Source: Anisus vortex | Lineage: Eukaryota; Mollusca; Gastropoda; Planorbidae | Direction: 5' to 3' | NCBI GenBank assembly: GCA_949126835.1 | Contig: OX421496.1 | Coordinates: 22,027,844 to 22,091,843, forward strand | DNA: 64,000 nt | Shown here: positions 1,402 to 64,000 of the stretch, one piece after another | Layout: each line of letters begins with the position of its first letter | Numbering within the stretch: position 1 is the first letter of the stretch | Notes under the pieces: generated by a model | Database searches by the model: none | What the model saw: the letters and a program-made list of their open reading frames with translations, nothing else | Told to the model about the DNA's origin: nothing | Translations under genes and position numbers: made by a program

Positions 1402-8911
<7,510 letters not shown>

Positions 8912-20700: not shown

Positions 20701-23700
20701 TTCCAGGAGCTGTACGAACCCTGTAATTACAAAAATAAAATAACCTATAATTTGTATTGAAAAATACACCATTTTATACACTCACACATAAAAATAAACA
20801 TGGAATTGCATAATGGGAAATAATGAATGATGGGGAAATAATGCAATAAGAGTAAATATTGCCTATAGTAAAATAATGCCAGGTAAAACTCTAGGCTAGC
20901 AACTATGCAATTTCTAGTTCAGTAAGCATTGAAAGGGTAAATAACAAAAAGAAATATTTCCTTTAGAATGTCTACAGTGTTCGAAGCTAGCTGACGCTAA
21001 CCTGTTTTTTCTCCTGCCACATTTTTCTCAGTGTGAGACTGTCAGGGTCGCACCTGTGACAAATCCTGGATCCAAACACAGACAGTAGATGTGTGGCTAG
21101 CTGAATATGATGCACCAACTCAAAGCCGTAAAAATGATTCAAGTCTATTAGAACCACTTCATGGGGATGGTCTTGCAAAAAGTTAAGAATGGCATCAGTG
21201 AAATCTCCAATCTGGAATTTTACAAGAACTTTTTTTTTTTTTTTTACCTCCTCTAGTTTACAAAAAAAGAAACGTTAGAAATGTTTTATAAGCATGATAA
21301 AAAAGAAACTTCAGTATTGCAGTTTTTAAAAATACCATGTAGAAATAAAAATGGTAATTTAAAATGTTCATCTTGAAGTCTAAAGTGACAAATATCTAGC
21401 ACTGATCACAGACTCGAAGGCTTTTTTTAAATTTATAAATAAACAAATTGGGAGGAAATGGGATAGCATTGAAACTAAATTTTAAAATCCATCATTGATT
21501 CTCCTAAGGTTGATATTAAAGAAAATTAAACTTTTATCAAATGATTTTTAAAAAAGGATTCACAAAAATAAAAGTTTATACTTGCATTGATTAAAATTTG
21601 ACAGTGTAAGTCAAGGAATCACTATATATCATAAATGTTATTTGGCATAACAAAAGGCCTGCCAGGCAATGCAATAATATTTTTTAACATACGTGATGCA
21701 ACCCCACAGAATGGTACTGAAGTCGACAAAAAAAGATATTTAGTTTCATGTGTTTAATAACAGCTTATTCATTTATCTACAGTGCTGAAAAAAAACAACT
21801 AAAATTGATTTATTATTTCTAACGTTATTCAAAATTATAACAGTAAAGGAAGTCATTTTGGAGTAAAATGAACAAGAAAACAGTACCAATTTTTCACAGT
21901 TTAGCAATGCAACAGATAATAAAATTTTACCAGGAGGAAAAAATATTAACCAGTCACAATGAAACTAAGCAAACATTTTTATAATGAGTTAATACACAAG
22001 CTGTTTAAGTTTTAAATGTTTTAAATAATATTTAGTTTACTTATAAACAATTATATCTTTAGATATAAAAGCTGCATAAAAACACATTTTTTAGTAACCT
22101 ATAAAAGAATTTTAGTCTGAAACTTTCACACCTAAAAGTTAAGACATTCAAAATTACAAATCAATAATTATGTCAAAAATGACCCAGTTTCCATACCGTT
22201 AGCATCACATATTTTATATGCCTGAGACTAAAAAAGAAATATATTCCTTACTCAATTATAGAAATATCAGCCTGTCTTCAAATGGGATAGTTTGTTTTCA
22301 TATGTCAATTCAAAGGTTTAAAGACAATTACTGATTCTGTTACAAACCTTGGGTCCATACAACTGGTGAACACAAAACATATCTTCACAGCCAGGTCTTG
22401 TTGCTAGTCTAAGATCAAAGTATCTTATCCCCGACAGAAGTTGTTGGGTAAAGTCTAATGACTGGCAAATGGCCCATCGCTGAATTATTCCTTTAGCCAT
22501 CGTACCAATCAGAGGGTTGTTTGCAAGATTTTCTATTTCTGTGGATGCACCAGGTGCCACACAGCCATTTGAGTCTAACGTAAATGTTCCAGAATCATGA
22601 GATCCTTAAAAATATCAAGTATTAAATTGTATTAGCATTAGGACAAAACTTACATAACATTACTAGATGTATGGGACATGACTTAGCTCATGTTTATGTT
22701 ACAGATGCCTTTAAATTTGAGTAGATTTATTAGCTTATTAAAATATAACTATTTTGGCTTTGAATTCATTTGTATTTAATTATGAAGGCCCATTCCTTGA
22801 ATATAGGGACACAGTGGCCGAGCGGAGCGCATTCGGCTTGCCTACCTAAGATCCTAGATTTGAATCCTTGAGTACTGCGGCTATTCGGACCCGGGTCCCT
22901 TTAGAATTGAACCGCTATTCGGACCCGGGTCCTATTAGAATTGAACCGCTAATCAGACCCGGGTCCCTTTAGAATTTAATGGCTATTCAGACTTTTTCAC
23001 TTTAGATTAAGCTGAATGCCTAGTCGTCAGTAGCAGTACTAGTATTAGTATGGGAATTAAAAAACTGTGGTTATTTCATCCTTGTTTTCAAAATAAAATT
23101 TCGGCCTTTTAAAAAATATTGTGTTCTTATACTTATAATTTCTTATGATCGTTTTTTTTTTTTATGGGAAGGGGGGGGGGGTTCGTTTTTTTTCATATTT
23201 AGGCCTATAGGCCTACTAAGCTTATAACAATACTATAGGCTACGTAGAAAAGACTTTTTAGCAAGCAGTTAAGATGATAAAGATATACATGTCTTCATTC
23301 GATTTAGGCATCAGTTAGGCCTACAGAAAAGTATTAACATTAAATAATTAACTATGGTAAAGTAAATGTTTCGGTAGGCTATATTGTTTAAACTAAAAGT
23401 TTCTAAAAGATTGACTTAAGAAAGCCTACTTTTTGATTGGATTAATAAAATGTAAAAATGGCATTCTATATGCAATTTAAATGAAATTCAACTTTTCATC
23501 AATTTTGTCCTTTTAAAAAATGTTTGTGTTTCTATTTCTTTAGTTAGGTAAAATAATTATTTTTTTTGTAATGGGGTGGGGGGCTTTTTTTTATATAACT
23601 TTTTAGCAAGTATTTATGTCTTTATGAGATTTATCAAACAATTAGAACAGTATTAACATTTAATAATTTACTACAGTAATTAAAGGTGTCCGTGTTGTTT

Positions 23701-26700
23701 AAACTAAAAGATAGACAAATGAAGTAGCCCACTTTATGATTGGATTAATTAGATAATACTTCTCTAAATAGGCCTTGGTTTAATCAGAACCAAATCACCA
23801 ATTTTAATTATGAATATCTCCAATTTTAAGAATATTTACAACTTGAGAACAAATTAATTTTTAAGTGTAATTTTGATACTTGATATTGATATCCACTAAA
23901 TTTGAACTTTCAACTGGCTTCTACTAGAGACATATTATTTTAATGAGATAATCTGGACACCTTGAACATTCAGGATTTTGTCAAAACCTTGATTTTAAAT
24001 CTCTCTCCATGCAGAACCAGTTATAAAGACAACAAACTTGATTTTTTTTCAGGGACACAAAAATCAAAAATTTTTATTCATACATTTTTCATTCATAAAA
24101 TAAAGTTGAAAACCATAAAATATTTATAAACATAATTCCATAAAACCAAACATTACAGAATATTTAAAGTAAAAAACCAAAAAGACACTCCAATCTAGTT
24201 CATGTTTAGTAAACGATATCAATCAAGCTATAATATAGTCAAATAAGTAAACATTATATGCATATCAGTGTGAAATTGTCAGGAAAAGTTGAAAAGCATA
24301 AAATATTTATAAAGATAATTCCATAAAACCAAAAATTACAGAATATTAAAAGTAAAAAAACCAAAAAGACACTCCAATCTAGTTCATGTTTAGTAAACGA
24401 TATCAATCAAGCTATAATATAGTCAAATAAGTAAACATTATATGCATATCAAAAAATTGTGAAATTGTCAGGAAAAGTTGAAAACCATAAAATATTTATA
24501 AACAGGGAAAGGGTTAAGAAATATTTTTCAGGAAATCCAACAATCTTTGCAAAACCAATTGGGCACTTTCATTTTTGAACGAAACCCAACACAAGCAAAA
24601 TGAAACCAACAAAGACAACATTCACAATTGACCATCTTTAACAAGGCATCATCAAACTCTAGACACGCAGCACAACGAAATACAGGATTGGCCTTTAAAT
24701 GCAACATAGAGTCATGCACATATGACCATGCAGCATCAGTAAAAGCGGACTTGACAATAGTTAAATCAACCGCATCATCAAGAACGGTATCAGAAAAATC
24801 TGAAAAATGTTTTTACTTTGTTGTACTTCACCTACATCTAAATTTTCTGGACTTCTCCGGAGCTTTAAAGTAGATTCAAGAAAAGATAATTTCTCTTCAA
24901 AATCCTTTTCACCCTGAATTGCCAAAAAATTAGCAATGTCCATACAAACTCGTTTTGCGATATTAAATCGCCCCTCTTGAGTCTTAAAATTCTTGTTTCC
25001 AGCAACAATTTTAGAAGTTACAGAACAAGATGTAGAAGAAACCAATCTGGGCACACTATTTTTGTTGAATCGTGTGGGAAGTAATTGCAGACAAAATTCT
25101 GGAAGCTGTAAATGTTTTCGAACTAAAAATATATGTCTGCAAGGTAACATCATTTTTTTTTAGCAAAAGTACAATTACAATTAACTGATGTTGAGCTAAA
25201 ATTACGTTCCTTGTAAGAAACTGAAAATATTTCATCCTCGCCAGGGACAACAGAGTATGGAACAGACCGTGATAATTTAAGCTGATTGAGCAATAGAGTA
25301 GCTGCAAATGAAGTGGCAACACTTTCAATAGCATTCACTGTTTCATCATTATCAGATGAGGTATAGTGAGCCCTGTTTGCAGCAAGCAACCTCAAACGAT
25401 CACATACTGTAGTCTTGCAGTTGTCAAAAGACATAAGGCTCTGAAGAGCAGATGCAAAAGAAAGATAATGAGACAAAGTCTTTTTTATTTTTGAATGATA
25501 AGACTCAAGATGATTTGTTGTGGTGGCATGGAGTTTTAAAACATCAGCATTGGATGAAGCTGCCCATAAATGGGCCTTACTCCACCAGTTTGACTCAAAA
25601 TATTCCAAAGCAACACACGGAAGAGTATCTTTCATGTCTTGCTTCAACTTTAAAAATTCATCACAAGACTCAATATATACTTGAGACATAAAAACATCAA
25701 GTATTGGCTGAACCTGCTCACGAACTACATGCCTCAAAAGATACCTGTGCACAGCCTGATTTATGTGGAAATGACATAGATTTACAGGAACATTTGGAAA
25801 AAGATCATTGATAGCAGAAATTTCAGCCATGTCTTTGTCAACTACAAAGCACTTAATAAAATTGACATCACAGTTCTGTAAAAGAAGGTGCAAACAAGAA
25901 GATACAGATTCCTTATCTTAATTTTTTACAAAACCATGAAGAACTGGAATTCCCCTTCCCTCTCCATCAATAACCATGACAGTCAAAAGTGGATATAAAT
26001 ATTTATTGGTTTTATATGTGAAATGCATTAATAAAACCTCTGGATATAGTGAAATAGTATTAATCATATCATTTGTCATATAAGCTAAATACTTAAATTC
26101 ACCACTTTCCGTCAGGCCATAAGATACACTTCCCCCAGCTTGTGTAACAGAGTCAAGGAGCGCTTCAGTTTCTGCTGCATCAGAGGACGACATGTTTATT
26201 TTCGCCTTAAGGTTGTAGATGTCCCTTGGTAGCAAATCTATATCATGCTGTTGCTCAAAACCATGCTTTTGTACAAAACCATGAAGAACTGGAATTCCCC
26301 TTCCCTCTCCATCAATAACCATGACAGTCAAAAGTGGATATAAATATTTATTGGTTTTATATGTGAAATGCATTAATAAAACCTCTGGATATAGTGAAAT
26401 AGTATTAATCATATCATTTGTCATATAAGCTAAATACTTAAATTCACCACTTTCCGTCAGGCCATAAGATACACTTCCCCCAGCTTGTGTAACAGAGTCA
26501 AGGAGCGCTTCAGTTTCTGCTGCATCAGAGGACGACATGTTTATTTTCGCCTTAAGGTTGTAGATGTCCCTTGGTAGCAAATCTATATCATGCTGTTGCT
26601 CAAGCACGTGCCGGACTTCAGGTGGCTGAATAGTGGTGCAGGACAACAATAGACCTGTTGTGGCATTTAGTTGGATCTGGCGATTCTCGGGGTATAAGCG

Positions 26701-29700
26701 GCACATCTGAAAAAAAAAAGTGACTTTGCAATAATAATGTGGTATAATTATCTAGAGTAGTAGACCCCAACCTTTTTAATGCCACAACCCCTTAATACAG
26801 ATCCTCAAGTTTTTTAAAGATAGCAGATAAGGTGGCCAACATTTTTGCCAAAGATGAAGTTTTATTTGGAACAAGCTAAAGTCCCCGGCGTTTCCCGGTG
26901 AAAATTAAAAAAAGCCTGTATAAGTAGTCTATAAGCCACAGATAAACATTTCATAAACTACAATGAACAATAAGATATATAATATAGGCTAGAAGTAATA
27001 ATTAAAAAAATTAGGCTATTAAGGATAGGGATAGATTTGGTGTTTTCTGTGCTACTTCTTATAATATATATGGTAAAACATCTATATTAAATAAATATAA
27101 TATTTTGTGTTTGTTTTCCTCTTTTTTTATGTTTTATCTAAGGAAGGAGTTTTAAGGAATTCTGACTGAAGCCGGGTCCGAGTAGCCATTTCATGCTATA
27201 GGGACCCGGGTCCGAATAGCGGCAGCCAAAATATATTGTGAAAAATAAAATGTCTTACAAAGATTAGCCTATTGTAACTAAACTTCAACATTGGGATAAA
27301 CATATTTCACAGCATATATGTACTTACTTCTTTTGAAACAGTATGGCCAGTATGTTCCAGTTTAGAAATAGTAATTTCAAGTCGGGCTGGATTCCTCTTG
27401 GCAACAAGCTTTATTTTTGCCTGGCATCCCACTTTGAAAGAACTGTAAAAAAATAGTATATAAGCTTTATAAAATAAATGAAGTGAATGCATAGGGCTTT
27501 AGTGGGATTGCTGTTTATTGTGTAGTGGCACACTGTAGGTAGTGCTCAGTCTGTCTGCTAATGCATGCTTACTTCAATTCAATATGAATTTTTTCGGACG
27601 CAACTCTCAATCTAATAATAATAAGTACTGGAGTGGGTACCACACTAATATATAAGTTCTAAATATATTATTACTATATATCTCAAATATGACTGTTACT
27701 TAAATACTAAAGTGTTTAATAAAGTAGGCCTAGGCCAAGACTTACGCTTGTGCTTTTCTTTGTCCTGTTGAAGACTTCGAATGGCGGGTAACACCTTGTT
27801 TGCAGCAAAGCACAATATACTCATACTTGAGGTGTTCCAAATTGAGGGCTTTTATTTTTTCTGACGATCTTTTAGTAAATAAGACATTGTTTTCTTTACA
27901 AAATATGTTAAGTTTTTCCTCAAAAGATGCATAGCTCTCAAACACGTTGGCAACCTCCATTTTTTATTGAGAAGTGAAAGACAGTGAGAGTTTATCAGGT
28001 CCGCAACCGGAAAAGGAAGTGAATGTTATCGGTTACAATGTCTATCGGGTCCGCATAAGGAAGCGATGTTATCGATTACTAAGTCTATCGGTCCGAATAG
28101 CGGTTCAATTCTAAAGGGACCCGGGTCCGAATAGCCACTTCGATCCTTGAGAGGCTAGGATATTTTTCCAGGTTTGGGGGGTGTCCCTGAGTCTACCCAG
28201 CTATGATGGGTAGGCTTACCTGACCTTAGTTAGGGTAAAGTAAAGGCAGCTGTGTATTGTGCTGGCCACAGAAACTGGTGAACGCTGCTTCACCAGCAGT
28301 CACCAGCCCTACTAAGTAGTAGTCAGTATATAAACTATATATTGTCTATATAATAGTATATACTTATATAGCCTATATAGGTCTATATGACTATAATATA
28401 AGAGTATGAGTCTATGAGTATGAGTCATGAATATTTTTGTTAATTAATAAATAGATTTAAATAGCCCAATAAATTTTGAATTAAATATAAGTTATAAACT
28501 TCAAAATAAAGTAATAATAAAGTATTTTAAATTTAAAGTCTGCTCATTCCGGCTATACTTTGGTTTAACTGCATCACAGAGTTTTTCTAAGTGCCATATA
28601 TCAATTTAAAGATCTTTTTGTCCTGAATACAAAAATCTAGGTTTCATTGAGCGGTTCCATTTGTGTGATTTTTATTTAATGTGGAAAATTTGGTAATTTT
28701 GCATGTTTTATTAAAAATTGTTACTTCCCTTGAGCTTTTTGTGTTAAATTTTGTTACGTCCCTTCGATTTGTTTATTTTTATTTATTTTTTCTTTTATCC
28801 CTATAATATCAAACGCACACACTCTCCATGTGCTACACGCTTCTCGGACCAGATTTTTCCCCCACTATCGGTTAGTTTCTAAGCTTTCTAAGTATTTGTT
28901 AATGATTACTATCGGTTAGTTTCTAAGCTTTCTAAGTATTTGTTAATGTTTACTATCGGTTAGTTTCTAAGCTTTCTAAGTATTTGTTAATGATTACTAG
29001 CGGTTAGGTTACAACATAGGGATAGCTATACATAGCCAACCTGGCCATATATTGGGACAGGAAGTAGTAATCTAGAAAAGCACATGGCACGCATGCGCAA
29101 CAAGAGACAGGTGGTCTCGACAACTAGGAAGAAAGAACAATAGGATTTTGTGTCTTTTTGTCTTATTTCATATGAAATACGGTAAGAATAATTAATTTTT
29201 TTTATACATTTCGTGCTATTTCGCCCCTTTTCCCATTTCGGTATCGGTGCTAAGAAATTCCTACTGAAAATTTTAGTAGCGGAGCTATTGATAATTGTGT
29301 CTTAGGAAGCCGCCAGACATCGTGTTTCATGGCTGTGTGACGTCACAAGCCTTTGTTAAACACAATGGAAAAAAAAATTTTTCGATGAAAAAATTTTTTT
29401 TTTTTCATTTTCAATAGTCTGCCGCTTTTCCTAAGACACTTATCAATAGATCCACGCAAAAAAATATTTTCAGTTGGAATTTTTTACAACCCTACTTTTC
29501 GTGAGGCAGCTGAACCAAACTTGACCAAAGTATTACCCTAATTCCTATTCACCTACTGAATAGACTATACTATAGGCCTACTATTCAGCAATTTCAGCTG
29601 CTATTCGCTAGGTCACTAGGCCCTAATCCGGCCTAGGCGCCTAGGCCTATTCCTAATACTAAACTTTATCTAATAAAAAATAATAATAACTAATTATAAA

Positions 29701-29799
29701 TGCTAGCTTACCAGGAATAGCTAGATCTGTAAGAGGTAAATCTATAAGATTGGTTGATTCTAACTGTGTCATCCATTCGGCATTTTTGTGCAAAGACAT
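17725..29799 (-). CDS. PI-PLC X-domain protein (PLCXD1/2/3 type), complete, five exons
   Basis: Coding exons on the - strand: 29799-29712, 22604-22348, 21211-21002, 20033-19871 and 17933-17725 (stop TGA). Lengths 88, 257, 210, 163 and 209 nt join in phase to 308 residues, the usual PLCXD size. The start ATG at 29799 opens MSLHKNAEWMTQLESTNLID; codon 30 is split across intron 1. X-domain landmarks: GSHDS (His32, the family's catalytic histidine), SGIRYFDLR (Arg90), and HQLYG (His109, second histidine; HGLYG in most relatives). Then DHPHEVVLIDLNHFYGFE, QVIIFYQFP, and the C-terminal LTPTTSTIM and FVDTSDFIQTIIDLN. PLCXDs are small cytosolic phosphoinositide-type phospholipases with only the X half. 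Intron 1 (7.1 kb) holds a MULE inserted in a SINE; intron 3 holds a hAT MITE. Confidence 0.93.
18058..18170. mobile_element. Solo hAT terminus (GGCACATGTGCCAGAC type)
   Basis: CTAAGGCACATGTGCCAGAC, TTGGCACACTCAGCAAT and TCAATTCAAGTC align with the ends at 1070 and 12500. No partner terminus is seen, and the SINE at 18172 follows directly. Lies in the last PLCXD intron. Confidence 0.55.
18172..18635 (-). mobile_element. SINE family A copy with tRNA-like head
   Basis: On the - strand the 5' end near 18635 reads GCGACTTGGTGGCTTAGCGG (A-box TGGCTTAGCGG), then GGTTGCTGGTTCCAATTC (B-box-like), so the family is tRNA-derived. The body shares TGTACCCATGGGCCTCA, GGGCTAATGCATGGGAGACA and a CCTGAATGTCCAGGCC region with the other copies. 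Orientation is the same as the host gene; it lies in the last intron. Confidence 0.7.
20235..20723. mobile_element. hAT-type MITE (CAGGGTTCGTACAG ends)
   Basis: Starts CAGGGTTCGTACAGAAA and ends GCTGTACGAACCCTG, a 14-bp near-perfect inverted terminus. Next to each end lie multiple TTCCAGGAGTTT-type motifs as subterminal repeats. The flanks (tactaatt and taattaca) do not give a clear 8-bp duplication. About 489 bp, in PLCXD intron 3. Confidence 0.65.
22806..22872 (+). mobile_element. SINE family B, left part (tRNA-like head)
   Basis: GGGACACAGTGGCCGAGCGG gives an A-box (TGGCCGAGCGG), and ATTTGAATCCTTGAG is a B-box relative (GGTTCGAATCC). The SINE is cut at ATCCTTGAG by the MULE and continues at 28143, where ATCCTTGAG is repeated and followed by AGGCTAGGATATTTTTCCAG. 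Confidence 0.75.
24105..24505. repeat. ~187-bp tandem duplication inside the MULE
   Basis: Two nearly identical units, starting about 24105 and 24292, contain AGACACTCCAATCTAGTTCA and AAACGATATCAATCAAGC. A partial third unit (AACCATAAAATATTTATAAA) follows at 24481. It lies downstream of the transposase stop. Confidence 0.85.
24528..27960 (-). pseudogene. MULE transposase with SWIM and PHD fingers (ZSWIM-like), inactivated
   Basis: Exon 1, 27960-27746 (MEVANVFESYASFEEKLNIF, a FAR1/ZSWIM-type N-terminus). Exon 2, 27442-27328 (VGCQAKIKLVAK...LEHTGHTVSKE). Exon 3 from 26706 (MCRLYPENRQ). Donors GTAAGT and acceptors CAG are intact and in phase. Exon 3 carries a 115-codon in-frame tandem duplication. 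The core motif LLMHFTYKTN has His where relatives have the first catalytic Asp, in both copies. TAA at 25918-25920 interrupts the frame, which then continues through FVVDKDMAEISAINDLFP and VPVNLCHFHINQAVHR. A SWIM finger follows (CNCTF ... LPCRHIF), broken by a frameshift in an A9 run near 25155. After another frame change near 24800 comes a PHD finger (FRCAACLEFDDALL, CECCLCWFHFACVGF, WFCKDC), stop near 24528. Confidence 0.8.
25927..26606 (-). repeat. 345-bp in-frame tandem duplication in the transposase
   Basis: Units 25927-26271 and 26272-26606 are almost identical. Each encodes QQHDIDLLPRDIYNLKAK through GEGRGIPVLHGFV. The period is 345 nt (115 codons), so the reading frame is kept across the junction. 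Confidence 0.92.
28143..28330 (+). mobile_element. SINE family B, right part (body and 3' region)
   Basis: Continues the SINE interrupted at 22872: AGGCTAGGATATTTTTCCAG, GGGTGTCCCTGAGTCTACCC, TTAGGGTAAAGTAAAGGCAG, GAACGCTGCTTCACCAGCAG. The 3' motifs recur in reverse at 31407-31460 and 40022-40130. Confidence 0.7.
28864..29007 (+). repeat. 44-bp tandem repeat, three copies plus partial
   Basis: ACTATCGGTTAGTTTCTAAG units start at 28864, 28908 and 28952, and a partial unit (ACTAGCGGTTAGG) starts at 28996. The spacing is exactly 44 bp. Confidence 0.9.
29240..29505. mobile_element. Foldback MITE
   Basis: Left GAGCTATTGATAATTGTGTC then TTAGGAAGCCGC pairs with right GCTTTTCCTAAGACACTTAT then CAATAGATCC. 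AATTCC(T/A)ACTGAAAAT marks the outer ends. The centre has TTTTTCGATGAAAAA. About 265 bp, in PLCXD intron 1. No clear target duplication and no superfamily call. Confidence 0.55.
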
Positions 29800-31404: not shown

Positions 31405-31460
31405 GGGCCGGTGAAGCAGCGTTCACCAGTTTCTGTGGCCACGGCATACTAGGGGATGTA
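31405..31460 (-). mobile_element. SINE family B 3' fragment
   Basis: GGTGAAGCAGCGTTCACCAG then TTTCTGTGGCCACGGCATAC, the reverse complement of the family B 3' region at 28260-28310. It lies inside the 30396-32595 element. Confidence 0.55.
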
Positions 31461-40035: not shown

Positions 40036-40130
40036 TTGTTTCTGTGACCACGGCATACTAGGAGACTGTGTGGCCAGCACAAGGCCCTTGCCCTTTACTT
40101 TACCTTAACTAAAGGCAGGTGCCCATAACA
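40022..40130 (-). mobile_element. SINE family B 3' fragment
   Basis: TTTCTGTGACCACGGCATAC, GTGTGGCCAGCACAAGG and CTTTACTTTACCTTAACTAA match, in reverse, the family B region at 28215-28300. Confidence 0.6.
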
Positions 40131-40811: not shown

Positions 40812-43800
40812 TTATTGCTGCTTTCTATGTTTAAACACCAACAATCTGTCAAGTCCCATAGTGTAGTTATACAGTACTTTAGGTCCTAGTGTAATGCTGT
40901 TGTCTAGTTCCCAAATGCCAGATGGTATATAAATGTCTCTCTGAAGCTTCCCTTCACAAAGTATTGGGGCCACAAGAAACTCATCACCCAGCAAAAACTG
41001 GTCTTTTATCTGTCAGAGAAACAAGCAAAATCACTTTCATTGGATGTCTTTGCAAATATATTTTTTGTTAAAGAAAGAAATTAAAAAAAAGGAAAGTGAT
41101 AAAGATAAATAGTGTATGATAAGACTAGTGTAGCTAAAATAAAAGACAAAACAATAAGAGCACAATACCAGCAATGCTGATTCATTCAGGTTTTTTTAAA
41201 AAAAGATGTTTTTTTTTTTCTTGATGGATCCCAAATAGAAGAAATATTTTCTAGTGTTACTTTTTATTAAAGTTAATGTATTATTTTAATACTTTTGTTT
41301 TGGAAACTGCATAAATATAGGTGTAAATATAGGTGTAAATATAGGTGTAAATATAGGTGTAAATATAGGTGTAAATATAGGTGACCCATGATGATTTATG
41401 ATGTTCTCTTTATTACCCATACGTTGGAATATTTTGGAGTTTTAGTTTGAAGTAAATTTCTGCAATATCAAATTTCTAATGGAAAGGATTACACATTGTT
41501 TTAGCGCTACAAAAAAAGAAAATGTGCGCTACAAAAAAGAAAATGTACGCCTAAAGTAGGCCTATAGATTATTTATTCAGCTGTTTGCAAATGTGTTTAA
41601 CTTCCCTCCCCAGCCCATTTTAAATTTTAACACGGCATTCATTACTAGGCTTATGTAAACTTGTTCATATAGCATTGAAATGATGTTTCATTGTTTCATC
41701 AATGTTTAGGACTATAGTTCTTATTAGAGTCCGGACTATAGTGTAAATAAGAGTTAGGACTATAGTCTATATTAGAGTTAGGACTAGACTAGACTATAGT
41801 CTATATTAGAGTAAACAAAGAGTAAACTATATACCTCAATTCTGTGAGCACTGTCATTCCTGGAATCTGGCCACCAAACTGGCCGTATCAGTGGCTGACC
41901 AGTAAGCATTGATCTGGCCAGCTGAACTAGTAGGTCATTAAATGTCGCATTTCTGTCCAGCTGCAGCTGGTTGGCAGTGTCTGTCACTGATTGGTCAAAC
42001 CGCCATGGCGGGGTGGAGATTTGATAAGCCGGGAAGGTCAAGGCCAGCTGAAGCCATCTTTTGTAAAGCTCACTAAAAAGAAGAGCCGAAACAGACCAAA
42101 AAAAAGTTAAAGGCGACTTTTTAATTCTTTCTACCTTGATTTGTGTGGCGGTTCGGTAATTTACTTTCTGCGGACCGGTTCCTGACCGGGAACCCGGGAA
42201 ACTCTATCAATGAGATAACCCACCTGGTCATTTTGGCTCCATTGCGTTCACGGTATCCGTCCATCATGATGAGCGGGTAGCCCATTAGACTCAGTGTCAG
42301 CGATTCTTCAATGACGTCTACAATACAGTTTCTGCCATTCACCGAGTCAATGGTGGCAGCCACAGGCACGTAGCCGGCTACATGTCTGGAGTCGGAGCTG
42401 TGCTCTACTATAAGGTTCTCGGACAGACGACTTATTGCTTCTGTCATCAGTCTCCTAAATAGACACAAGGAACAGCCTTAATATATAAGTATATATATAC
42501 ATAGACATAGACAAAGAGAGAGAAATGAAATACATTCACTTCTTTGTTGATGTTTTTTATTTTGCTTATGTGTGTTGTTGTGTTAGTTCAAGATAAAGAT
42601 CGTTATGAAATTAAGAGAAGAGTTTTATCGGATTTATCCCTTGTGTAAAAATGATCACAATCAGTTAAGCAGTTGAAAGAAATGACACTGCCGACACCTT
42701 AGCTAAAGCTGGAGGCAGACAAAACCAGACAGACTCATCTCTACACCCCGAAGAAATAAAGGCAATACTCAAAAGGAATGAATCCGAAAGATGGTCTGAG
42801 CTGCAACAAAACAACCCAAAGATTGATGCTTACTACAAACTCTCCCGCCAATTTCAACACATCATCTTCAGACTAAGGACTGGTCACAACAGACTAAAGC
42901 AACACATGTTCCGCATACTACGAATTGGAGCAAGCGAAATGTGCCCCTGCGAAACAGCTCCCGAAAATGCGGAGCATGTCCTTCAGATCTGCCCTCTGTA
43001 TCTTTCTACCCGGTCAGCCATTTGGCCCCTGGGGGCTACCTGCAACGACATACTGTTCGGTGGACTAGAGCAACTGACAGCCACGGCGCAGTTCATTACA
43101 ACTATCGGACTTGTTGTCTGAATCCTCCCAATCATAACTTTTGAGAACGAAGAAGAAGAAGAAGTTAAGCAGTTAAGCATGGCTAAACACTCTTTTTCGT
43201 GGGTAAATGTCGTCACATTCTAGAAAACAAAAATCCTACCTTGTACGTTCTAATAAAAATAGTATAAATAAATAATGAAATATAATATTTAGTAGTAAGT
43301 GAGTACAGTTTTCTTTTGGTGAGAAAATAACATCGAAACGAAAAACCACAAACACAATATCAAGTCTGCCGTTACCTGGGAACCACACAAGCAAGTGTCA
43401 CAAGCAAGGCAACATCCGGTCTGCCTACAGCCACACACATATTTTGTCTTTTATTTATCACAGTTTACACCCCTTACACTAAACAAATAGACACAGTACA
43501 AAATTATGCAGACCCAACCAGGTTATAAATAACAATTGTTGTTTCAGCCAACAGAATATAACCTTGAGTTAGGCAGTACACACGGTTGGACAATAAAAGA
43601 AATAGGACAGCCTGAAGCTCTAAATGAGAGAAAAAAACAACAACAAATATATAGCCTAACTATATTCTTTGGTTATCAGAAGCAAACAAACACAGTGTCA
43701 CAGTGATACAGACTAGAAGGCTATTTACCTGTACATGTTTGGAGTACCTGTCTTCAAATGAAATTGGGGTTTGTAAGGCAGCCATGATTCAGTTCCATAT

Positions 43801-46800
43801 GTTAAACGAAAGTTGTCTATGTTGAGATTCTTCAGCTCCTGAAAACCCATGATAAATTTATTAGACTAATTCAGTACAAGATACATGATTTTTTATATTT
43901 CACCTCATTCATTTTAGTAAAATAAATACATTTAGAAACATGCCAGGAAATAACGTTTGAAAAGCAAAACAGTGAAATAGCATAAGACCTTAACCTCTAA
44001 TTTAAATGAAACACTGTCTATAATCATCTAACAAAAGCCCCCCCCCCCTTCCCCGCGCAAAAAAAAGAGATTTGTAGATTTGAATCTGTGTTAATTTTGT
44101 TATGCCATGTGCAAACACAAAATTCATATCCATTTTATTCCTTCAAATTTACATCCAGGCATGGAATGGGTTTAAGGAACTAGTCAGGTTAAAGTTTTTA
44201 AATATGTTAAAATTTATTAAAGGATGTTTTATTGTGTTGGAAACTGTATGTTTATATATAGGTACAGTAACTTAAACATAATGTACATATATAAGTGCTG
44301 GTCAGTTTTAGTCAGTCAAAAGCAAAACAATTAGCAGAATCAATACAAAAGATTAAAGAAAAATAGTTTTACGTCTTTTTACAAATCCCCATATGTATAC
44401 AAACAGCATTTGATTAAGACTAAACACTTGTCTAAAAATCCCATTCTTATTATGATACAGCAGAGAAAGGGTCTTTGTTTACGCAACAGTACAGCTATGT
44501 ATTTATAATTAAGAGTTAATTAACTGATGTCGCCAGTCCCCATTAGTCACATAGACTGGGGGATTCAATGAACAAAACCACTAAAACAGTGTTACATGTT
44601 GGAAAACATCAACCGTGTAGGTGTAGTGTATTGAAAATGTAATATGAAAGTGCGAAAAGGTTGAATGCTTGGATAATTTAAGCCATCAAAATTTATTTAA
44701 AAAAAATATTATTTTAATGAATGTTTCACGCAATGGACTGGAAAAACTTTAATGGGCAACAATGTTATTGTTATATATCAATTGGAGTAATTTAATGTAA
44801 TGTTTATATTTGAGAATGATGCCTATTTGAATGTGTTCACCTACCATGAATGTTTTCTTTTTAAAAGAATGAGTTCAAAGTACCTGAATGAGTTCAGCAT
44901 ACCAAGTCATGCCAATACCATTAAAGACATCCAGAACTGCAACCAGCTCTCCATTATAAAGGATTAACCCTGGCACTTTACCGCCTGCGTCTTTGACAAA
45001 AGTGGAATTGTAGACACCCTGTAAGTCATCAAGTTTAGAAAACACAACAGTAAATCAAAATAATAATAATAATAGACCTAGAGACAAGGGTCACAGTTGC
45101 CTAGCAGCAGTGCACTGGGCTGGCATACCTAGAGAAAAGGGTTACAGTTGCATAGCAGCAGTGCACTGGGCTGGCATACCTAGATACAAGGGTCACATAT
45201 GCCTAGCAGCAGTGCACTGGGCTGGCGTACCTAGAGACAAGGGTCACAGTTGCCTAGCAACAGTGCACTGGGCTGGCATACCTAGAGACAAGGGTCACAG
45301 TTGCCTAGCAGCAGTGCACTGTGCTGGCGTACCTAGAGACAAGGGTCACAGTTGCCTAGCAGCAATGCACTGGGCTAGCGTACCTAGAGACAAGGGTCAC
45401 AGTTGCCTAGCAGCAGTGCACTGGGCTGGCGTACCTAGAGACAAGGGTTACAGTTGCCTAGCAGCAGTGCACTGGGCTGGCATACCTAAAGACAAGGGTC
45501 ACAGTTGCCTAGCAGCAGTGCACTGGGCTGGCATGCCTAGAGACAAGGGTTACAGTTGCCTAGCAGCAGTGCACTGGGCTGGCATACCTAGAGACAAGGG
45601 TCACAGTTGCCTAGCAGCAGTGCACTGGGCTGGTATACCTATAGACAAGGGTCACAGTTGCCTAGCAGCAATGCACTGGGCTGGCATACCTAGGGACAAG
45701 GGTTACAGTTGCCTAGCAGCAGTGCACTGGGCTGGCATACCTACAGACAAGGGTCACAGTTGCCTAGCAGCAGTGCACTGGGCTGGCATACCTAGAGACA
45801 AGGGTTACAGCTGCCTAGCTGCAGTGCGCTGGGCTGGCATACCTAGAGATAAGGGTTACAGCTGCCTAGCAGCAGAGCACTGGGCTGGCATACCTAGAGA
45901 CAAGGGTTACAGTTGCCTAGCAGCAGTGCACTGGGCTGGCATACCAAGAGACTAGGGTCACAGTTGCCTAGCAGCAGAGTACTGGGCTGGTATACCTAGA
46001 GACAAGGGTCACAGTTGCCTAGCAGCAGTGCACTGGGCTGGCATACCTAGAGACAAGGGTCACAGTTGCCTAGCAGCAGTGCACTGGGCTGGCATACCTA
46101 GAGACAAGGGTTACAGCTGCCTAGCAGCAGAGCACTGGGCTGGTATACCTAGAGACAAGGGTCACAGTTGCCTAGCAGCAGTGCACTGGGCTGGCATACC
46201 TAGAGACTATGGTCACAGTTGCCTAGCAGCAGTGCACTGGGCTGGCATACCTAGAGACTAGGGTCACAGTTGCCTAGCAGCATTGCACTGGGCTGTCATA
46301 CCTAAGAGCAAGGGTTCGAATCCTGGTCAATGCTAAGATTTGTTTCCAGGTCTGGAGGGTGTTGACAGCACACTGTGACAAGTACAGAATGATCTGTAAA
46401 GGGTGCAAGTAGATTGTAGTAGAAATGTCGACTCAGCGTATGTTCATCAAAGCCATATAGGGGGTGACAAGTAGGACGATCCAAAGATTCTATGCCAAGT
46501 GCAAGGTTCAGAGTTAGTCCTCAGAAAGAAGGCTACTCGACAATGGCAAGCAGGTGGAAAACGAAGTACAATCAGCTGGCGGCTGAAGTACCTGAAGATG
46601 TCAGACGGATTTTAGCGCAAAGAGTCTACATTAGAAGTAAGTCTGCATAGACCTCTACAAAAAATGTTTACATTTCTATAACTATAAGTAATTGCAATAA
46701 ATAAAATGTTAATAAAATTGTTTGAATTTATATTAAGATTTATTATTGTTTATAGTTTGAATTACTAAATATTAAAGAGGGAAAACCAAAATATGTTTAG

Positions 46801-49800: not shown

Positions 49801-52800
49801 CGTAATTATATAGGGGGGGTCTCTGAAAGTTTGACAGTTGTTGACAAGGGGGAGGGGGGGGGAGGTAAAAATCGCCTAAAAATTGTTGACGTAATTAATG
49901 GACGTCCCCAATGTAGGTTTGCTGATGGCGTTTTTTTTAAAAACTAAGATCAGTTCGGGTTCAAATATTATTCTTCATATACTGAAAGTGGCATCGGCTG
50001 AGGAAAACACCAGAGACGTTGTTGAACAGGTTCAACAAGACGATGAACTTTCTGACATTGACGAGGACAATGAGATTGAAGCTAAAGATGGTGTTGTTCT
50101 TGTTCCTGCTGTCCTAAGATTTCATGATGTTGGCTACTTAGAGTTTGATCAAACGACAAAGCTATCAATAATACCAAAGCCTCTTCGTGATGAATTTATA
50201 ACTCTCGGATCCATACCCTTTTAGCATAGAGGCAATCTATCGTCAGTAGCTGGTGAACGTTCGATTACTTCGTCATGGTTTAAACGCCGACAAGCAAATG
50301 GAGAGGAAGTAAATCGCTCGTGGCTATTATATTCACCAATTGAAAAAGCTGCTTACTGTTTCTGCTGTCTATTGTTTACATCATCATGTTCAAACTCACG
50401 ATCTTCATTTGAGTTAACCAATGGTTTCAACAAATGGAGAAAGCCAGAAAAACTAAAGTCTCATATAGACAGTCTCGGGCCACCGCAGAGCTTTTACTAC
50501 ATGGAATGAAGCCGGGCGGAGGATAATTGATAAAACTGGAATTGATGTCCAGGTTCAAGCTCAAATTCAATTGGAAAAACATCGTTGGCGCGATATTTTG
50601 AAAACAATACTTACCTGTATTAAGTTTCTAGTTTCACAAAATTTGGCACCGCGTGGCCATGATGAACATCTGCATAAGGACGAGGATAAAAATGTTGGAA
50701 ACTTTCTCTCTGTAATCAAACTCGTTGCTCAGTATATAGTAGATATGATCCACTGTTAGAAAAACACCTACAACATGCCTGAGAAAATCCAAGTTCAGTA
50801 TCTTATTTATCACCGGAAATCTAAAACGAATTTATCCACCTACTTGCATCGACTGTAAGGAATCAGCTGTTCTAAGAATCAGTAAAATCAGAAAAAAAAA
50901 CAAGTACTACGGTATCTTACTTGACTCAACACCCGATTTAGGACACCGAGAACAGCTTTCTCAAGTCATCAGATTTGTGGATGTGGATTTTCAAACTAAA
51001 AAAGTAACCATCAAAGAATCATTTTTAGGTTTTATTCAGATACAAGCCTTGAAAGAGTTATCGTGGAGAAACTGGAATCTGATAACATACCTCTAGCCGA
51101 CTGTCGGTCACAATGTTATGACAATGCTGCTGTAATGACTGGGCATATATCCGGCCTTCAACAGCGAATATGTTTCAGAAATCACAGAGCATTGTTCGTC
51201 AACTGTAACAACCACAGCTTAAACTTAGCAGGAGTACACTCAGATAAACAGGATCCAGTTGTTATCACATTTTTTGAAACAGTTGAAAATATAAATTTGT
51301 TTTTCTCTGTTCAACAACTCGTTGGGAAGAATTAAAAAGAGTTGTGCCAATCACAGTGAAAAGGGCGCCTGAAACACGATGGAGTGCACTATCAGAAGTT
51401 GTTAAAGCTATTTATGAAGGACAAGATGAACTAGTAGGGCTGTTGGAAAAATTATCAGAAGATGTAACTATGACGCATGACACCAGAAGTGATGCAAACA
51501 TTTGCTGACAGGTATATTAAACTTTAACTTCCTAGTTTTGTTACATTTCTGGAACATCATACTTGGGAAAATTGGTCGTGTCCAGAAACGGTTGCAGAAT
51601 CCTACTATGAATTTCAAGGAAGCAGCATCTGATCTTGAATCGCTAGAGCAAGAACTTGTCAACATTCGTGATAATTTGAGCCAGGTTGCGGTAGACAATG
51701 GAAAACAAGATGCACAACTTGAGGAATCGAGGTTGACAGAAGGATTAAACGAAATCGGGGGATGCCTGGAGAATTAGCAAGAGATGCAGGACTTTCTGCA
51801 GAAGAAGAAATTGCACGTGTTATGAACAGCGTAATAGATAGACTCCAACAGGAGATATCGATACGGTTTTTAGGTCTAAAAAGCTAAACACCAAATTTGG
51901 ATTTTTACTAGACGTCAAAAACTCTTCTCGCTGAGACAAATGTCGATACAAATCGTCAAAATTGATTAGATTTTGGAAATTTCAACGACACTGACGTCAT
52001 TGGTCACGATTTGTGCACAGAAATCGGAGACTGCAAAATGATGCTCAGTACCCGGACTGAAGTTCTACCGGAAACTCCTTTGGATCTTCTTGGTTTTATT
52101 GTTTCATATGGAGATGACGTATTTCCGAATCTGCGCATTTCACTGCAAATACTTCTAACAATTGCTGTTTCAATTGCAAGCTGTGAGCGGTCCTTCAGCA
52201 AATTAAAGCTTATTTTGTCTTATTTACGTGCTTCAATGGGACAAGATCGTCTGAGTGATCTTGCACTCCTTAGCATTGAAAGAGAAACACTTAAAAAATA
52301 TTAATTCTGACAACGTGATTGACGAGTTTGCGACAGTCAAATCAAGGAGGATCATTTTTTTGTAGACTATGTCTATTCCAGCCATGTACAATTAGTAGAG
52401 TTGTTTTTTTCAAATAAATTGTTTACAATCGTATAGAGAATCACTAGTCTGTATTCTATTTCATTAAGATAACAGATGCTTCGAAAATAAACCATATAAA
52501 CCGTAAAATTTCAAAAATTTTCTTGGGGGCAGACTCTGTCGGTCCGAGAAGGGGCGCAGACTTTGTGTCATGTCCCCGGGCGCAGATGACCCTAGCTACG
52601 CCACTGACAATAAGTTAACATTAGCACCAACATAAACCCTTAAATTAAAGACCATCATTTAGACCAACATTATCACCAACATTAGTACCAACATGGACTT
52701 ACTAGTTCAAAGTGTTTGCTTGAAAACTTGAAATAAGGAGACAATGTTAATACAATTTGTCTTTTCTTCTCCCTCGACAGCTCTTCCAGAAGCGTCGCGT

Positions 52801-55800
52801 TAAATCTTAGCGGGTCAAAGGTCAGGTCTCCTGTCGTCTGTTCCCACGCCACGTCCAAAGATATTTGATCCACAGCGAACCCGTTGGCCTCCCCTTCTGC
52901 TATCAACGTGGCGACATTAGCCTGAGTGACGTTGCCAGGGGCGGAGAAACTTTTCACAGACCAGAACGGCGACTGAAAAATCCGGTGCGCTGAGACATTC
53001 AGAAACTGCGAAGAACTGAAGATATTATGCTGCATGAAGGCGTGAGTCTCCAGGGCGTCCTGACTTTGGCAAACGGTGTAGTTTAAGTAGGGCAGGCTCT
53101 GCTTGTGGTGGTACAGCGGGCCGGTGAAGTTGGATACGACGCAGAGGTCAAGAGCTCCTGTCATGTTCCAAAAGAGCTGAACGGGCATGTCGGGGTGGAC
53201 GTAGAGCGACGCCCCTGTGGAGGACAGCCAATAATAGTCTGGCCTCGACCCGAACACGCCGTTGTTCTGAGTGGTGAAGTCGGAGTGTTGAAACTGAAAT
53301 GACCCTTTGATGGGGAATATACTGGAGGACTGATTCGACGGACCGTACCAAACACTGCTGCCCAAGTCCAAGCAATCATGTGGAAAATACTGAAGAAGAA
53401 AAACAGACAGTTGCTAGAGATTATCATTATTAAACTATTAGAGTTCCTATTTTGATGGATTAAAATCATTGAATAATCTAATGTTGTCTTTTTTTCATAA
53501 CTTAGCCTGGAAATATTTTTAAGTTTTATGGTAAGGTAGAAATGGTTAGACCCACAAAATAAGTCTTCAGATCAAGCCCGGATTACACTAAGAAATTTTA
53601 ATTTGAAAAACAAATACATATTCGATGAACATAGAGCACCTTCCCATTGGCATTATGTCATAAGGTCTTAAAAATGGAAAAAATGTGAAGGACTCTAATA
53701 ATGTAAATTTTAGTATAAGAGAATTACAGGGTAAAGAGTTTTTTATAAGTAACATTAAAAATCATATTTAGATTGTATACTGTTGGGACTCGGAATTACA
53801 TTACCTTTATATCCAATTGCAATAACACTTAAAATGATGTGAAAATTTAAACTTGTACGCTAAAGATTTATTTAGATGTGGACAAATACCTAAAGTTCAC
53901 AATGTGCACATAACATAACATTCCAATGTAGCCAAATTTAATATTCACATTAGGAATCTGTCACTTTCTTTTTTTTTACATATTAAGACAGTGCATAAGA
54001 ATGCATTCACAAATAACGTGTTAAAAAATAATAGGCCTAAAACTACATGGCTGAAAGGTCAATCCCACACCGCCCCATTCAAACTAAGCTTATATATTAC
54101 AACACCGTGTGAACATTTTACAACACATCTACAACAATAGGGAGGGGGAGAATGAAGGGAGGGGTGTATTAGGCATATAATCCCGTACATAAAACAATTA
54201 TAAAAAAAAACATTAATAGAAGAGAGAAATCCAAGTGATAGAAATAGATCGTCGTTAATTGAAAACTGTTGTAAAACTGTCCGTGCAGTTATATAGGGGA
54301 ATGAACTCACTCCCACCAACGTATATATTATATAGTTCAGAGCTTAATCGTACTAAGCACCGCAAGGCATTACCATTCTGTGGTTTCCTTTCATGAAATT
54401 TTCATTTATTTAAAAACAATTTAAAAAAAAACACAACGTAAACTTAGTAGGCCTATTGAATTTAAAAAAAAACAACAACAATAAAAGTTGTTTAGATATT
54501 AAATGAAAATATTAACGGATATTAAATGTTTGTATCAATCTTTGAATCGTTGTAAAGCAAAAAGAAGAAGAATCCGTCTGAAATAGTTGTAAGCTCCGTA
54601 GGCAGATAGTAATATAATTTGAGTGTTAGTGGTAATACAACTTCAGCAAATTATCCAACTTGCTTGGTGTTGTCAACTCTAACAATATAATACCAAGTAA
54701 GCTGATGTTGTAAAATGCACTATTAAAATACCAACTAACCTGGTGTTGTAAACTGTCCCAAGAAACATTGTAACAGTTGACTTGCTCATTGCCAAAATTT
54801 CGTACTGTTACAACTGCCTTGTTTTTCCAAACACATTTTTTCACATTGAGATTTTTCTTTTCAAACTCTGGGCAGTGAAGTGGCAGTATCCAGGAAGGTA
54901 TTTCTTTTCCAAGCTTGACATGTACTTTATACGTGTTACTTGGGTCTACATGTGGAATTCATTAGTAAACATTCAACAAATCTCACCTTATTACTTGTGT
55001 ACAAAAAAATTGTTTGGGGGTGTCTCTGGTCCCTTACACCAATTTATGTACCCATGGACCTCAACGCTGGTGAAATTTCAAAACCACCGATATGCTAACT
55101 TGTCATGGGGGACATCCCCTGTTGCACGTCCGAGGATCATTGCAGTGCTATGCGGCTTCGAGACTCGGTGGGGAGGAAGCGGTGAGCGCAATAGTTCGTC
55201 CCAACCCCGCCCTGGCGCCTGCATGCCCAGGCCTATAGTCTGGAATTTGTGCTACCGGGTGACAATGCAGGCATACGAGCGAGCCACCACGTTAATGATT
55301 CAATGTGAATTCCGCAGGTGTGTAGAGAAGTGTGGTGCATGTATTGCGGAGACCGTACCATTGTTACGCGGCACGCCCTATCAGCGTGCCGCTGGGTGGC
55401 TAGTCTCGGACAGGATCTTAGTTTGACGTCCCTTTAAGACACCCTTTATCATCATTGCGCCCTGGACGTAAGAGCCGTAAGTCTCCTCAGGTAGTTTTAG
55501 ACACTTATCGATCGGTCATTTACACCATTGTATTCATGACTTTCTGATATGTAGAGATTAGTAGAGAACAAACTGTAATGATGAATGGCTCAAATTCAGC
55601 ACCACTAACTCTCAACTCAGAAACTGTCATAAGCCGGAACTATTTATAATTCATATTAATGACTTACCAAATAGCATCAACATAGGAATAATGCTAAGGT
55701 TATTTGCTGATGATTATATATCTTACAGGACATTAAAGACAGAAAAAGATAATGAAATCTTACAAAAAGAACTTCATGAATTACAAAAATGGTAATCTAA

Positions 55801-61285: not shown

Positions 61286-61605
61286 CGTTCAATCTCAGGC
61301 GATGTTGAAAGCCAGATGGGTTTCACATGTGTGGTTTTAGATAAAACTATCTCGTTGTATAGCAGCTGCAGTACATTAGTTGATATTTCTTGATGACTTT
61401 GTTATAATTTCGTGACATAACACTTGTGCCAAACCAATGCATTAGACAAAAGCTTTTCTTGGATAAAATCCTAAGGAAAATAATTAATTCCTATACATAT
61501 TGTAGCTACATATTGGTCGATGTTTCCGATCAAAGAAGCAATAATGATTTGTTGTTTTCGAAATACAAAACCTGAATTATTGAAATTATTTTAAATAATA
61601 ATTGT
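61286..61605. promoter_or_regulatory. 5' flank of the glycosidase gene
   Basis: 320 bp between the start codon and the 9-bp array. Must hold 5' UTR and probably the core promoter (transcription leftward). No motif I can assign with confidence. Confidence 0.3.
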
Positions 61606-63342
61606 ATCTATCTTATCTACCTTATCTACCTTATCTACCTTATCTACCTTATCTACCTTATCTACCTTATCTACCTTATCTACCTTATCTACCTTATCTA
61701 CCTTATCTACCTTATCTACCTTATCTACCTTATCCATCCTATCCATCCTATCCATCCTATCCATCCTATCCATCCTATCCATCCTATCCATCCTATCCAT
61801 CCTATCCATCCTATCCATCCTATCCATCCTATCCATCCTATCCATCCTATCCATCCTATCCATCCTATCCATCCTATCCACCCTATCCATCCTATCCATC
61901 TTATCCATCTTATCCACCTTATCCACCTTATCCACCTTATCCACCTTATCCACCTTATCCACCTTATCCACCTTATCCACCTTATCCACCTTATCCACCT
62001 TATCCACCTTATCCACCTTATCCACCTTATCCACCTTATCTACCTTATCTACCTTATCTACCTTATCTATCCTATCTTATCTATCTTATCTATCTTATCT
62101 ATCTTATCTATCTTATCTATCTTATCTATCTTATCTATCTTATCTATCTTATCTATCTTATCTATCTTATCTATCTTATCTATCTTATCTATCTTATCTA
62201 TCTTATCTATCTTATCTATCTTATCCATCTTATCCATCTTATCCATCTTATCCATCCTACCCATCCTACCCATCCTACCCATCCTACCCATCCTACCCAT
62301 CCTACCCATCCTACCCATCCTACCCATCCTACCCATCCCACCCATCTCATCCATCCCACCCATCTCATCCATCTCATCCATCTCATCCATCTCATCCATC
62401 TCATCCATCTCATCCATCTCATCCATCTCATCCATCTCATCCATCTCATCCATCTCATCCATCTCATCCATCTCATCCATCTCATCCATCTCATCCATCT
62501 CATCCATCTCATCCATCTCATCCATCTCATCCATCTCATCCATCTCATCCATCTCATCCATCTCATCCATCTCATCCATCTCATCCATCTCATCCATCTC
62601 ATCCATCTCATCCATCTCATCCATCTCATCCATCTCATCCATCTCATCCATCTCATCTATCTCATCTATCTCATCTATCTCATCTATCTCATCTATCTCA
62701 TCTATCTCATCTATCTCATCTATCTCATCTATCTCATCTATCTCATCTATCTCATCTATCTTATCTACCTTATCTATCTTATCTATCTTATCTATCTTAT
62801 CTATCTTATCTATCTTATCTATCTTATCTATCTTATCTATCTTATCTATCTTATCTATCTTATCTATCTTATCTATCTTATCTATCTTATCTATCTTATC
62901 TATCTTATCTATCTTATCTATCTTATCTATCTTATCTATCTTATCTATCTTATCTATCTTATCTATCTTATCTATCTTATCTATCTTATCTATCTTATCT
63001 ATCTTATCTATCTTATCTATCTTATCTATCTTATCTATCTTATCTATCTTATCTATCTTATCTATCTTATCTATCTTATCTATCTTATCTATCTTATCTA
63101 TCTTATCTATCTTATCTATCTTATCTATCTTATCTATCTTATCTATCTTATCTATCTTATCTATCTTATCTATCTTATCTATCTTATCTATCTTATCTAT
63201 CTTATCTATCTTATCTATCTTATCTATCTTATCTATCTTATCTATCTTATCTATCTTATCTATCTTATCTATCTTATCTATCTTATCTATCTTATCTATC
63301 TTATCTATCTTATCTATCTTATCTATCTTATCTATCTTATCT
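61606..63342 (+). repeat. 1.74 kb array of 9-bp units, about 190 copies, in homogeneous blocks
   Basis: Nine-mers of type YTATCYAYC in successive pure blocks: TTATCTACC (to ~61730), CCTATCCAT (~61731-61898), TTATCCACC (~61900-62038), TTATCTACC (4 units), TTATCTATC (~62070-62221), TTATCCATC (4) then CCTACCCAT (~62257-62340), CTCATCCAT (~62341-62655), CTCATCTAT (~62656-62758), TTATCTATC (~62759-63342). Because the unit is 9 bp without stops, several frames stay open (603 codons on +); these are not genes. On the - strand TTATCTATC reads GATAGATAA, giving AGATAA and AGATAG, both matching WGATAR. Confidence 0.95.
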
Positions 63343-64000
63343 TATATGTTTTGTCTATACAAAAGACAATATCTTTGAGTGTTTATCCGCAGTTAGAATT
63401 TGTATCTGAGTGACGGTGAACTACTCAGTTGTTTAAAAAACAACAACTTAAAAACCCAATATGGCAGTAGGAAAAAATGCGTATCCCACAAATGTTAATA
63501 ATAACTCAAACGTAAAGTTACTTGACTCAGTATCCAAAAGAAAAGACACACGCATATCGGCCATTATATAATATAAAGCAATTTTCGTTAACAAAATAAA
63601 GTTAATTATTTTTGGATAGTCCATAACTTATTTAACAACTTTCTATGTCTTTTAGAATTCCACTTAGATACATTCATTATTTGTATATATCTAGAAAGCA
63701 TTTTTCTTCTCTCTACAGTGTCACAACTAGTTGATCATAATAACAAAAGAAGGGGAAAAAGTGACACTGCTAAATAACTCATGGCAATAACAACACACAA
63801 GAAGAAGAACGAAAAGTCTAGCCGCGACACAAAGTTTTATGGAACACAATCCCTGAACTTAACGCAATGTCACTGGTCCTTTTCATTGGCTCGCAGGTTG
63901 ATCACTGGAAGTTAAGGGGAGGGAAGAGAGGTTTGGGATTTAGGCGTAAGTGTCAGTTTTTCTCCCCTTTTGGAAACTGACCATAATATGTATTACAAGT
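63343..64000. other. Distal flank, no gene seen
   Basis: Right-hand edge of the window. AT-rich, no recognisable coding exon, repeat or RNA gene. Confidence 0.4.

Follow-up and report, generated by a model that had tools for sequence, protein, structure and literature searches.

Can a transposase carry a histone-reading domain as an inherited part, and could such a domain help it to choose where it lands? The question is raised by a Mutator-like element (MULE) that occupies positions 22873..28142 (minus strand, 5,270 bp) of the window, as we call the whole stretch of 64,000 nucleotides analysed here (contig OX421496.1, positions 22,027,844 to 22,091,843). An initial annotation had described a MULE at this place, with 9-bp target-site duplications (TSDs), inverted ends and a transposase that ends in a PHD finger, and had proposed that a chromatin-reading domain could bias its integration. 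With a probability of about 0.88, slightly raised from 0.85 by the host-genome data, we read the element as a decayed member of the animal MULEs whose PHD finger is an inherited part of its lineage. The domain order of this lineage is ZSWIM3-type N-terminus, RNase H (DDE) core, SWIM finger, helical region, variable repeat-rich linker, AT-hook and C-terminal PHD.

Borders and transposase gene of the window copy

The element (33.5% GC against 36.1% in the window) is flanked by the 9-bp TSD ATCCTTGAG at 22864..22872 on the left and 28143..28151 on the right; among 200,000 random pairs of window positions, 473 had by chance a 9-mer direct repeat no more than 12 bp from each. Its terminal inverted repeats (TIRs) are two perfect 47-bp arms at 22879..22925 (plus strand, the gene's 3′ side) and 28090..28136 (minus strand, the gene's 5′ side), which are 100% complementary over the 47 bp, start 6 bp inside the TSDs and contain GGACCCGGGTCC. 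The initial annotation is thereby borne out on the element, its duplications and its inverted ends, and both a TSD within the 8-11 bp of the MULE superfamily and TIRs are found in the window copy. The outer 6 bp (22873-22878 and 28137-28142) differ between the two ends. On the 5′ side the tip reads CGAAGT in the window copy, CGATGT in a host-genome copy on C9 and GGAAGT in seven young copies described below, while the 3′-side tip is TACTGC in the window copy and GGCTGT in the young copies; since the outer bases of each end recur in other copies in the host genome, the borders 22873 and 28142 are supported. It may be noted that the tips are end-specific, being alike end by end across copies (xGAAGT on the 5′ side, xxCTGx on the 3′ side). 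Also present are a minisatellite (34 bp x 3.3 copies, 22880..22992) in the 3′-side end of the element, a tandem repeat (184 bp x 2.2 copies, 24102..24504) between the transposase stop and the 3′-side TIR, and a high-copy repeat of ~215 bp (27011..27229) in intron 2 of the transposase gene. The last recurs at 38 or more further host-genome places, a minimum given that 40 of 2,055 candidates were scored; its end (27158-27225) resembles the TIR of the element, and it is possibly a non-autonomous MULE derivative. A shorter element, 22873-27225, is ruled out, as the TIR-like piece is the end of this separate repeat.

The transposase gene has three exons on the minus strand with GT-AG borders and compatible phases, as had been annotated. 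A FAR1/ZSWIM-type N-terminus had been claimed; a ZSWIM3_N match is found in exon 1 (27746..27960), at 22.2 bits and so below the cut-off of 27.8, and exon 2 (27328..27442) has the remainder of this domain. The decayed exon 3 (24528..26706) holds the RNase H/MULE core, the SWIM finger, the helical region and the PHD finger. A Pfam check of MULE, SWIM and PHD had been proposed with the annotation. The core is matched above the cut-offs by MULE PF10551 (31.2 bits on 25150-25917, cut-off 27.6) and by ZSWIM1-3_RNaseH-like PF21056 (50.4 and 52.8 bits, cut-off 27.2), and PHD PF00628 scores 26.2 bits (cut-off 24) in an open reading frame (24528..24812, minus strand) with a C4HC3 motif and complete zinc ligands. 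The SWIM motif CNC...CRH (25133..25179, minus strand) is seen in the window by eye only, with a frameshift between its halves. Also on the minus strand, exon 3 has an in-frame nonsense codon (25918..25920), frameshifts near 25155 and near 24805, and a tandem duplication of 345 bp (25922..26603) that repeats part of the catalytic domain, in frame and with 1 mismatch in 337 bp. Both duplicates have H in place of the first catalytic D, and the positions of the DDE triad read H, D, E, which departs from the triad of the MULE superfamily as in a decayed member. The linker and AT-hook of the relatives have no counterpart in the window copy. This copy is dead and makes no working protein.

Inheritance of the PHD finger

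In the host genome (863,417,759 bases, 159 contigs) the window PHD matches 32 places, its own locus included, and the core query matches 80 stretches, 26 of them with at least 140 bits. In 19 of these 26 strong core places a PHD place follows on the same strand, at a distance of 350-2,734 bp downstream, and the other 7 have no PHD match downstream, which tells against a PHD shared by the whole family. Among the 7, only the one on C10 (L045, C10:22250800-22254900) was read in detail; it runs in frame from the core through a SWIM-like region and the repeat linker to the AT-hook and then stops before the PHD. The copy nearest to that of the window, on C9 (92% over 671 bp, 88% over 533 bp), has no 345-bp duplication, its first Asp is D and its second H, and a stop replaces a zinc Cys in its PHD; its other end was looked for and not found. 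A copy on C16 (85% over 1,115 bp) retains core and SWIM together with an AT-hook-like KGKP motif and the remnant of a PHD, and these two nearest copies are broken like the window copy. L037 is a diverged copy, and L038/L040, L041-L043 and L044 are further subfamilies. Pfam SWIM scores 20.4 bits in L042, above the cut-off of 19.6, and 15.5-19.0 bits, below it, in six host copies and the public proteins P0001, P0002, P0026 and P0029. The PHD is an inherited family trait, and of the several subfamilies in the host genome one was recently active.

The young subfamily consists of seven copies (L031-L036 and L039) of 6,673-8,208 bp, which are pairwise 98.85-99.97% identical over 3,100 bp at the start and 2,200 bp at the end, with the linker outside the comparison. 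Four have exact 9-bp TSDs (TATAATTAG, ATACAGAAA, CTATTATTT, GATGTAAAA), two have 8-bp TSDs (TTTTATTA and a run of A), and one sits in a TATCT repeat, which leaves its TSD undefined; the TSDs are AT-rich, over seven sites only, and the TIRs are imperfect. A single open frame runs up to the PHD in L031 (1,122 codons), L032 (942), L034 (962) and L035 (902), all with Pfam MULE and PHD above cut-off, and in L031 and L035 the triad reads D, D, E and an AT-hook-like KGRPRNKQ precedes the PHD. L039 has 1,024 codons and an altered end within the PHD, and in L033 and L036 the frame is broken. L031, L035 and L040 resemble the window copy in having an exon-2-like stretch upstream. The lengths differ mostly through TTDLSLPVPS, a decapeptide repeated in the linker that separates core and PHD. 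Its copy number varies among the near-identical copies of L031-L039, and with it the transposase length varies widely.

Three protein searches, with ~8,000 candidates scored each, listed 25, 8 and 9 proteins, or 32 different ones. These searches are not censuses, as P0003, part of the second query, did not appear in the second listing, and the queries carried the PHD, which tilts the sample to PHD carriers. Nearest among the matches listed are P0003 of Elysia chlorotica (44%), P0002 (42%) and P0001 of Elysia marginata (39%). P0004, a Bulinus truncatus model named 'carbonic anhydrase IX', includes parts of a close copy (61%, covering 12% of the query); these MULE fragments probably entered the model by a mistaken fusion or by exonisation. 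The host is probably a heterobranch gastropod. The PHD pattern occurs in 5 of the 32 proteins among the matches listed, with Pfam PHD scores of 30.1 bits in P0001, 19.2 in P0002, 28.3 in P0003, 26.7 in P0026 and 20.6 in P0027 (cut-off 24), and the C-terminus of P0029 is a degenerate Cys cluster. No PHD is seen in P0028, an Elysia model cut at both ends, or in the distant relatives P0005, Clytia P0030 and others. The annotation had named two outcomes as speaking against it: that the PHD was captured in this copy alone, which did not occur, and that relatives end before the PHD, which is true in part, for the 7 core places and the PHD-less proteins just described. AT-hook motifs of the RGRP type, which have no Pfam match, precede the PHD in P0001, P0002, P0003 and P0027 and the Cys cluster in P0029; P0026 has none before its PHD. 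Similar GRP motifs lie near the end of the PHD-less P0005, P0009, P0010, P0012 and P0013, and in Clytia P0030 the AT-hook is followed by an OTU domain, so named by the source (15.1 bits, cut-off 23.3). The triad reads D, D, E in five of six aligned relatives and N, E, E in P0026, and for a structure model of P0002 the only 5 PDB matches with E <= 0.001 are ISCth4 transposase chains. No relatives were found in phage records, viral contigs or prokaryote genome contigs. A tree from 260 core columns of 31 proteins and the window piece, with host copies left out, groups P0001, P0002, P0003, P0026, P0027, P0028 and the window with a support of 90, or 95 on adding P0029; within the group, support is weak for some branches (52, 53, 68) and strong for others (94, 100). 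As the PHD lies outside the tree columns, the simplest reading is that it was gained once, at or before the base of the group.

The same data bear on two explanations that would make the PHD an accident of this locus or the locus no transposon at all. MULEs tend to pick up host gene fragments (PMC6446971), and the PHD might have been a host exon captured by the window copy alone in the Pack-MULE style; with the PHD at 32 host-genome places and in five public relatives it is common to the family, and capture is ruled out, its already slight probability having been lowered further by the host-genome data. A domesticated ZSWIM-type host gene would agree with the Pfam ZSWIM1/3 matches and with one relative called ZSWIM1 by its source, but the TSD, the TIR, the broken frame, an interrupted short interspersed element (SINE) at the insertion site and the near-identical young copies with their own TSDs rule it out, and the negligible weight it keeps was likewise reduced by the host-genome data.

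A possible histone reader

PHD fingers in other proteins read marks of active genes. In TAF3 the aromatic cage is made of W868, D877, M882 and W891 (PMC12238850), and the cage positions read F, D, M, W in the window copy and in four of six relatives (P0001, P0002, P0003, P0026). In the host genome the cage was read at 20 of the 32 PHD places, window included, and the pattern could be followed in 18 of these 20 (not in L029 and L030), with L020-L025 being near-copies of one another. The first position is F or Y and the last W in 18 of 18, D is kept in 17 of 18, and the floor is split evenly between M (9) and L (9). The window PHD was modelled apart, the whole-P0002 model being weak outside the core with a mean predicted local distance difference test score (pLDDT) of 60. 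Its nearest solved PHDs are ING4, ING1 and TAF3; Foldseek places AL3, TAF3 and Pygo entries first (probability 0.99-1.00, E 0.013-0.055), and of the top 7, six are titled as complexes with methylated H3 and one with K4ac. From cage residues and fold matches, we give even odds to a role of the PHD in binding histone H3 methylated at lysine 4 (H3K4me), a little better than before because of the 18 host PHDs.

Excision and staggered-cut insertion are established for the MULE superfamily. The intact enzyme would bind the element ends and excise the element, and a staggered cut on insertion would leave the 8-9-bp duplications, the cut being seen here as the TSDs. The most likely role of the PHD would be to anchor the complex of transposase and DNA on H3 tails that carry methylated lysine 4 while the AT-hook grips AT-rich DNA, and integration might thereby favour promoter-proximal chromatin. 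This suggests that the PHD helps to choose the landing site, although the integration bias itself is something we infer. More doubtful, in our judgement, though somewhat less so since the host-genome data, is the wider picture of recently mobile animal MULEs whose own transposase carries a TAF3-type H3K4-methyl reader beside an AT-hook and is a self-contained promoter-seeking enzyme; its tail would be an exchangeable slot (PHD here, OTU in the hydrozoan relative) and its core-reader linker a length-variable repeat.

Several observations weigh against chromatin reading. The cage reads Y, D, F, C in P0027 and Y, gap, R, S in P0029, so it is lost in both; its floor in the young subfamily is L and not M; and the window, P0001, P0002, P0003, P0026 and P0027 have L where TAF3 has D889, which is one of its two H3R2-contacting residues. 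These points, together with the OTU domain of Clytia P0030, by which the C-terminal slot accepts unrelated modules, favour a PHD that is no H3K4me reader but a protein-contact or folding module or a recruiter of a host factor, with no part in target choice. Against this explanation stand the aromatic and Trp positions retained in all readable host PHDs across subfamilies, and the nearest solved PHDs, which are H3K4me readers; we hold it to be possible on a minority of the odds, which the host-genome data reduced slightly. Also, P0002 has D at the expected zinc-ligand His, the window PHD model has a pLDDT of 68 and no Foldseek match with E <= 0.001, the window copy has neither triad nor open frame, and its insertion site, which lies 1,569 bp inside an intron, is one case only. 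The transposase of maize Mu is not known to have a PHD. Maize Mu itself favours H3K4me3 regions (PMC2774946). The idea of the initial annotation thus gains from the cage residues and loses by a copy that makes no working protein and by the example of maize Mu.

Comparison with known systems

PHD fingers in Mutator-type transposases are already described in the available passages of PMC6446971 and PMC2836005, chiefly for Rehavkus, the only element for which those of PMC6446971 list a PHD. There Rehavkus has a 9-bp TSD, a TIR of 26-400 bp, one ORF, a PHD and a minisatellite in the C-terminus or before the 3′ TIR. The lineage of the window may well be Rehavkus or its mollusc branch, in which case the PHD is already on record and the name changes, not the working; we put this at an even chance. 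The shared features are the PHD in the transposase, the 9-bp TSD, a TIR of tens of bp (47 bp here) and a minisatellite in or after the transposase C-terminus; 3′-side tandem repeats are found in the window copy, the young copies have the long decapeptide repeat between core and PHD, and the inverted ends of Rehavkus-1_TC contain tandem arrays. It was the repeat in the C-terminus that raised the odds of this assignment. In the same passages, however, Rehavkus is listed with the PHD as its sole zinc finger, without SWIM or AT-hook, and with arthropod and annelid hosts, and it serves as an outgroup to the MULEs, whereas the window core passes the Pfam MULE cut-off; the comparison is by listed features.

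A C-terminal PHD on the transposase of a DNA transposon, as in the window lineage, is also reported for Ginger1-9_HM, and the legend of Figure 1e in PMC2836005 mentions both Ulp1 and PHD domains for transposases of Ginger1 and Mutator; these differ in the Ulp1 protease of the tail, and Ginger also in its core and 4-bp TSD. Phantom and other animal MULEs share the MULE core, SWIM in some, TSDs of 8-10 bp and, in aphids, a minisatellite after the ORF, but no PHD is listed for them in the passages of PMC6446971 available. The RAG2-like proteins of RAGL transposons likewise bring a PHD to a transposition machine, that of sea urchin RAG2L binding H3 methylated at K4 with a preference for me2 (PMC7204232); here the PHD sits on a separate kelch subunit and the core is RAG1/Transib. 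The PHD of TAF3 resembles that of the window at the cage (F or Y for W868, D877, M882 or L, W891; PMC12238850) and differs in belonging to a TFIID subunit and in D889, which is L in the window PHD. MULE-derived FHY3 genes are described in molluscs (PMC10027918), the word PHD not occurring in the passages available, and the main text of PMC13359780 has no 'PHD'. Whether the combination had been described was left open in the initial annotation. PHD in Mutator-type transposases is in print, and a mollusc MULE with SWIM, AT-hook and PHD was not seen among the literature matches listed, which were openly available papers.

Insertion site and other features of the window

The target of the insertion is a tRNA-like SINE, whose left part lies at 22808..22872 (plus strand) and whose right part runs from 28152 to ~28330. 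When joined, the flanks align through the junction with 46265-46362, a SINE-like stretch (98 columns, 72%, score 82; best score 38 in five letter shuffles), weaker junction-spanning matches (scores 49-59) lie in the tandem array adjoining that stretch, and parts of the right flank also match 3942-4091, 5012-5102, 31407-31451 and 40069-40120. The label rests on a reading of the sequence and on the repeat matches of the joined flanks, a tRNA scan of the window giving 0 genes. The adjoining array, at 45014-46362, has a unit like the SINE's head. The SINE with the MULE sits in a 7,107-bp intron (22605-29711) of a PI-PLC-like gene, in the same orientation as the gene, and the MULE ends 1,569 bp from the donor of the first exon. 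The first coding exon found (29799-29712) and the next exon join to ...LAIPGSHDSGTF..., a PI-PLC-type motif. PDB PI-PLC sequences match the neighbouring exons over residues 8-40 (best 2.5e-7), and the exons have no Pfam match at E <= 1.

Elsewhere in the window, large tandem-repeat arrays at 1581-3860 and 61576-63413 are open in several frames on both strands. An ORF at 5121-5519 has a tubulin C-terminal domain (1.4e-35), and another at 52682-53413 a piece of glycosyl hydrolase 31 (4.8e-5, just below the cut-off). By eye, 7931-8440 has a THAP-like start and 42669-43121 an RNase H tail of the long interspersed element type, both with no Pfam match at 0.001.

Implications

As far as literature searches show, a probable gastropod is added to the animals with PHD-bearing Mutator-type elements. 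Many transposons favour open chromatin near genes, and the part that does the reading is known for few. If true, near-identical recent copies whose transposase has a histone reader of its own would make this testable through insertion sites and changes of the cage residues. Such a transposase would also parallel RAG2, where a PHD likewise reads H3K4 methylation on a transposon-derived machine.

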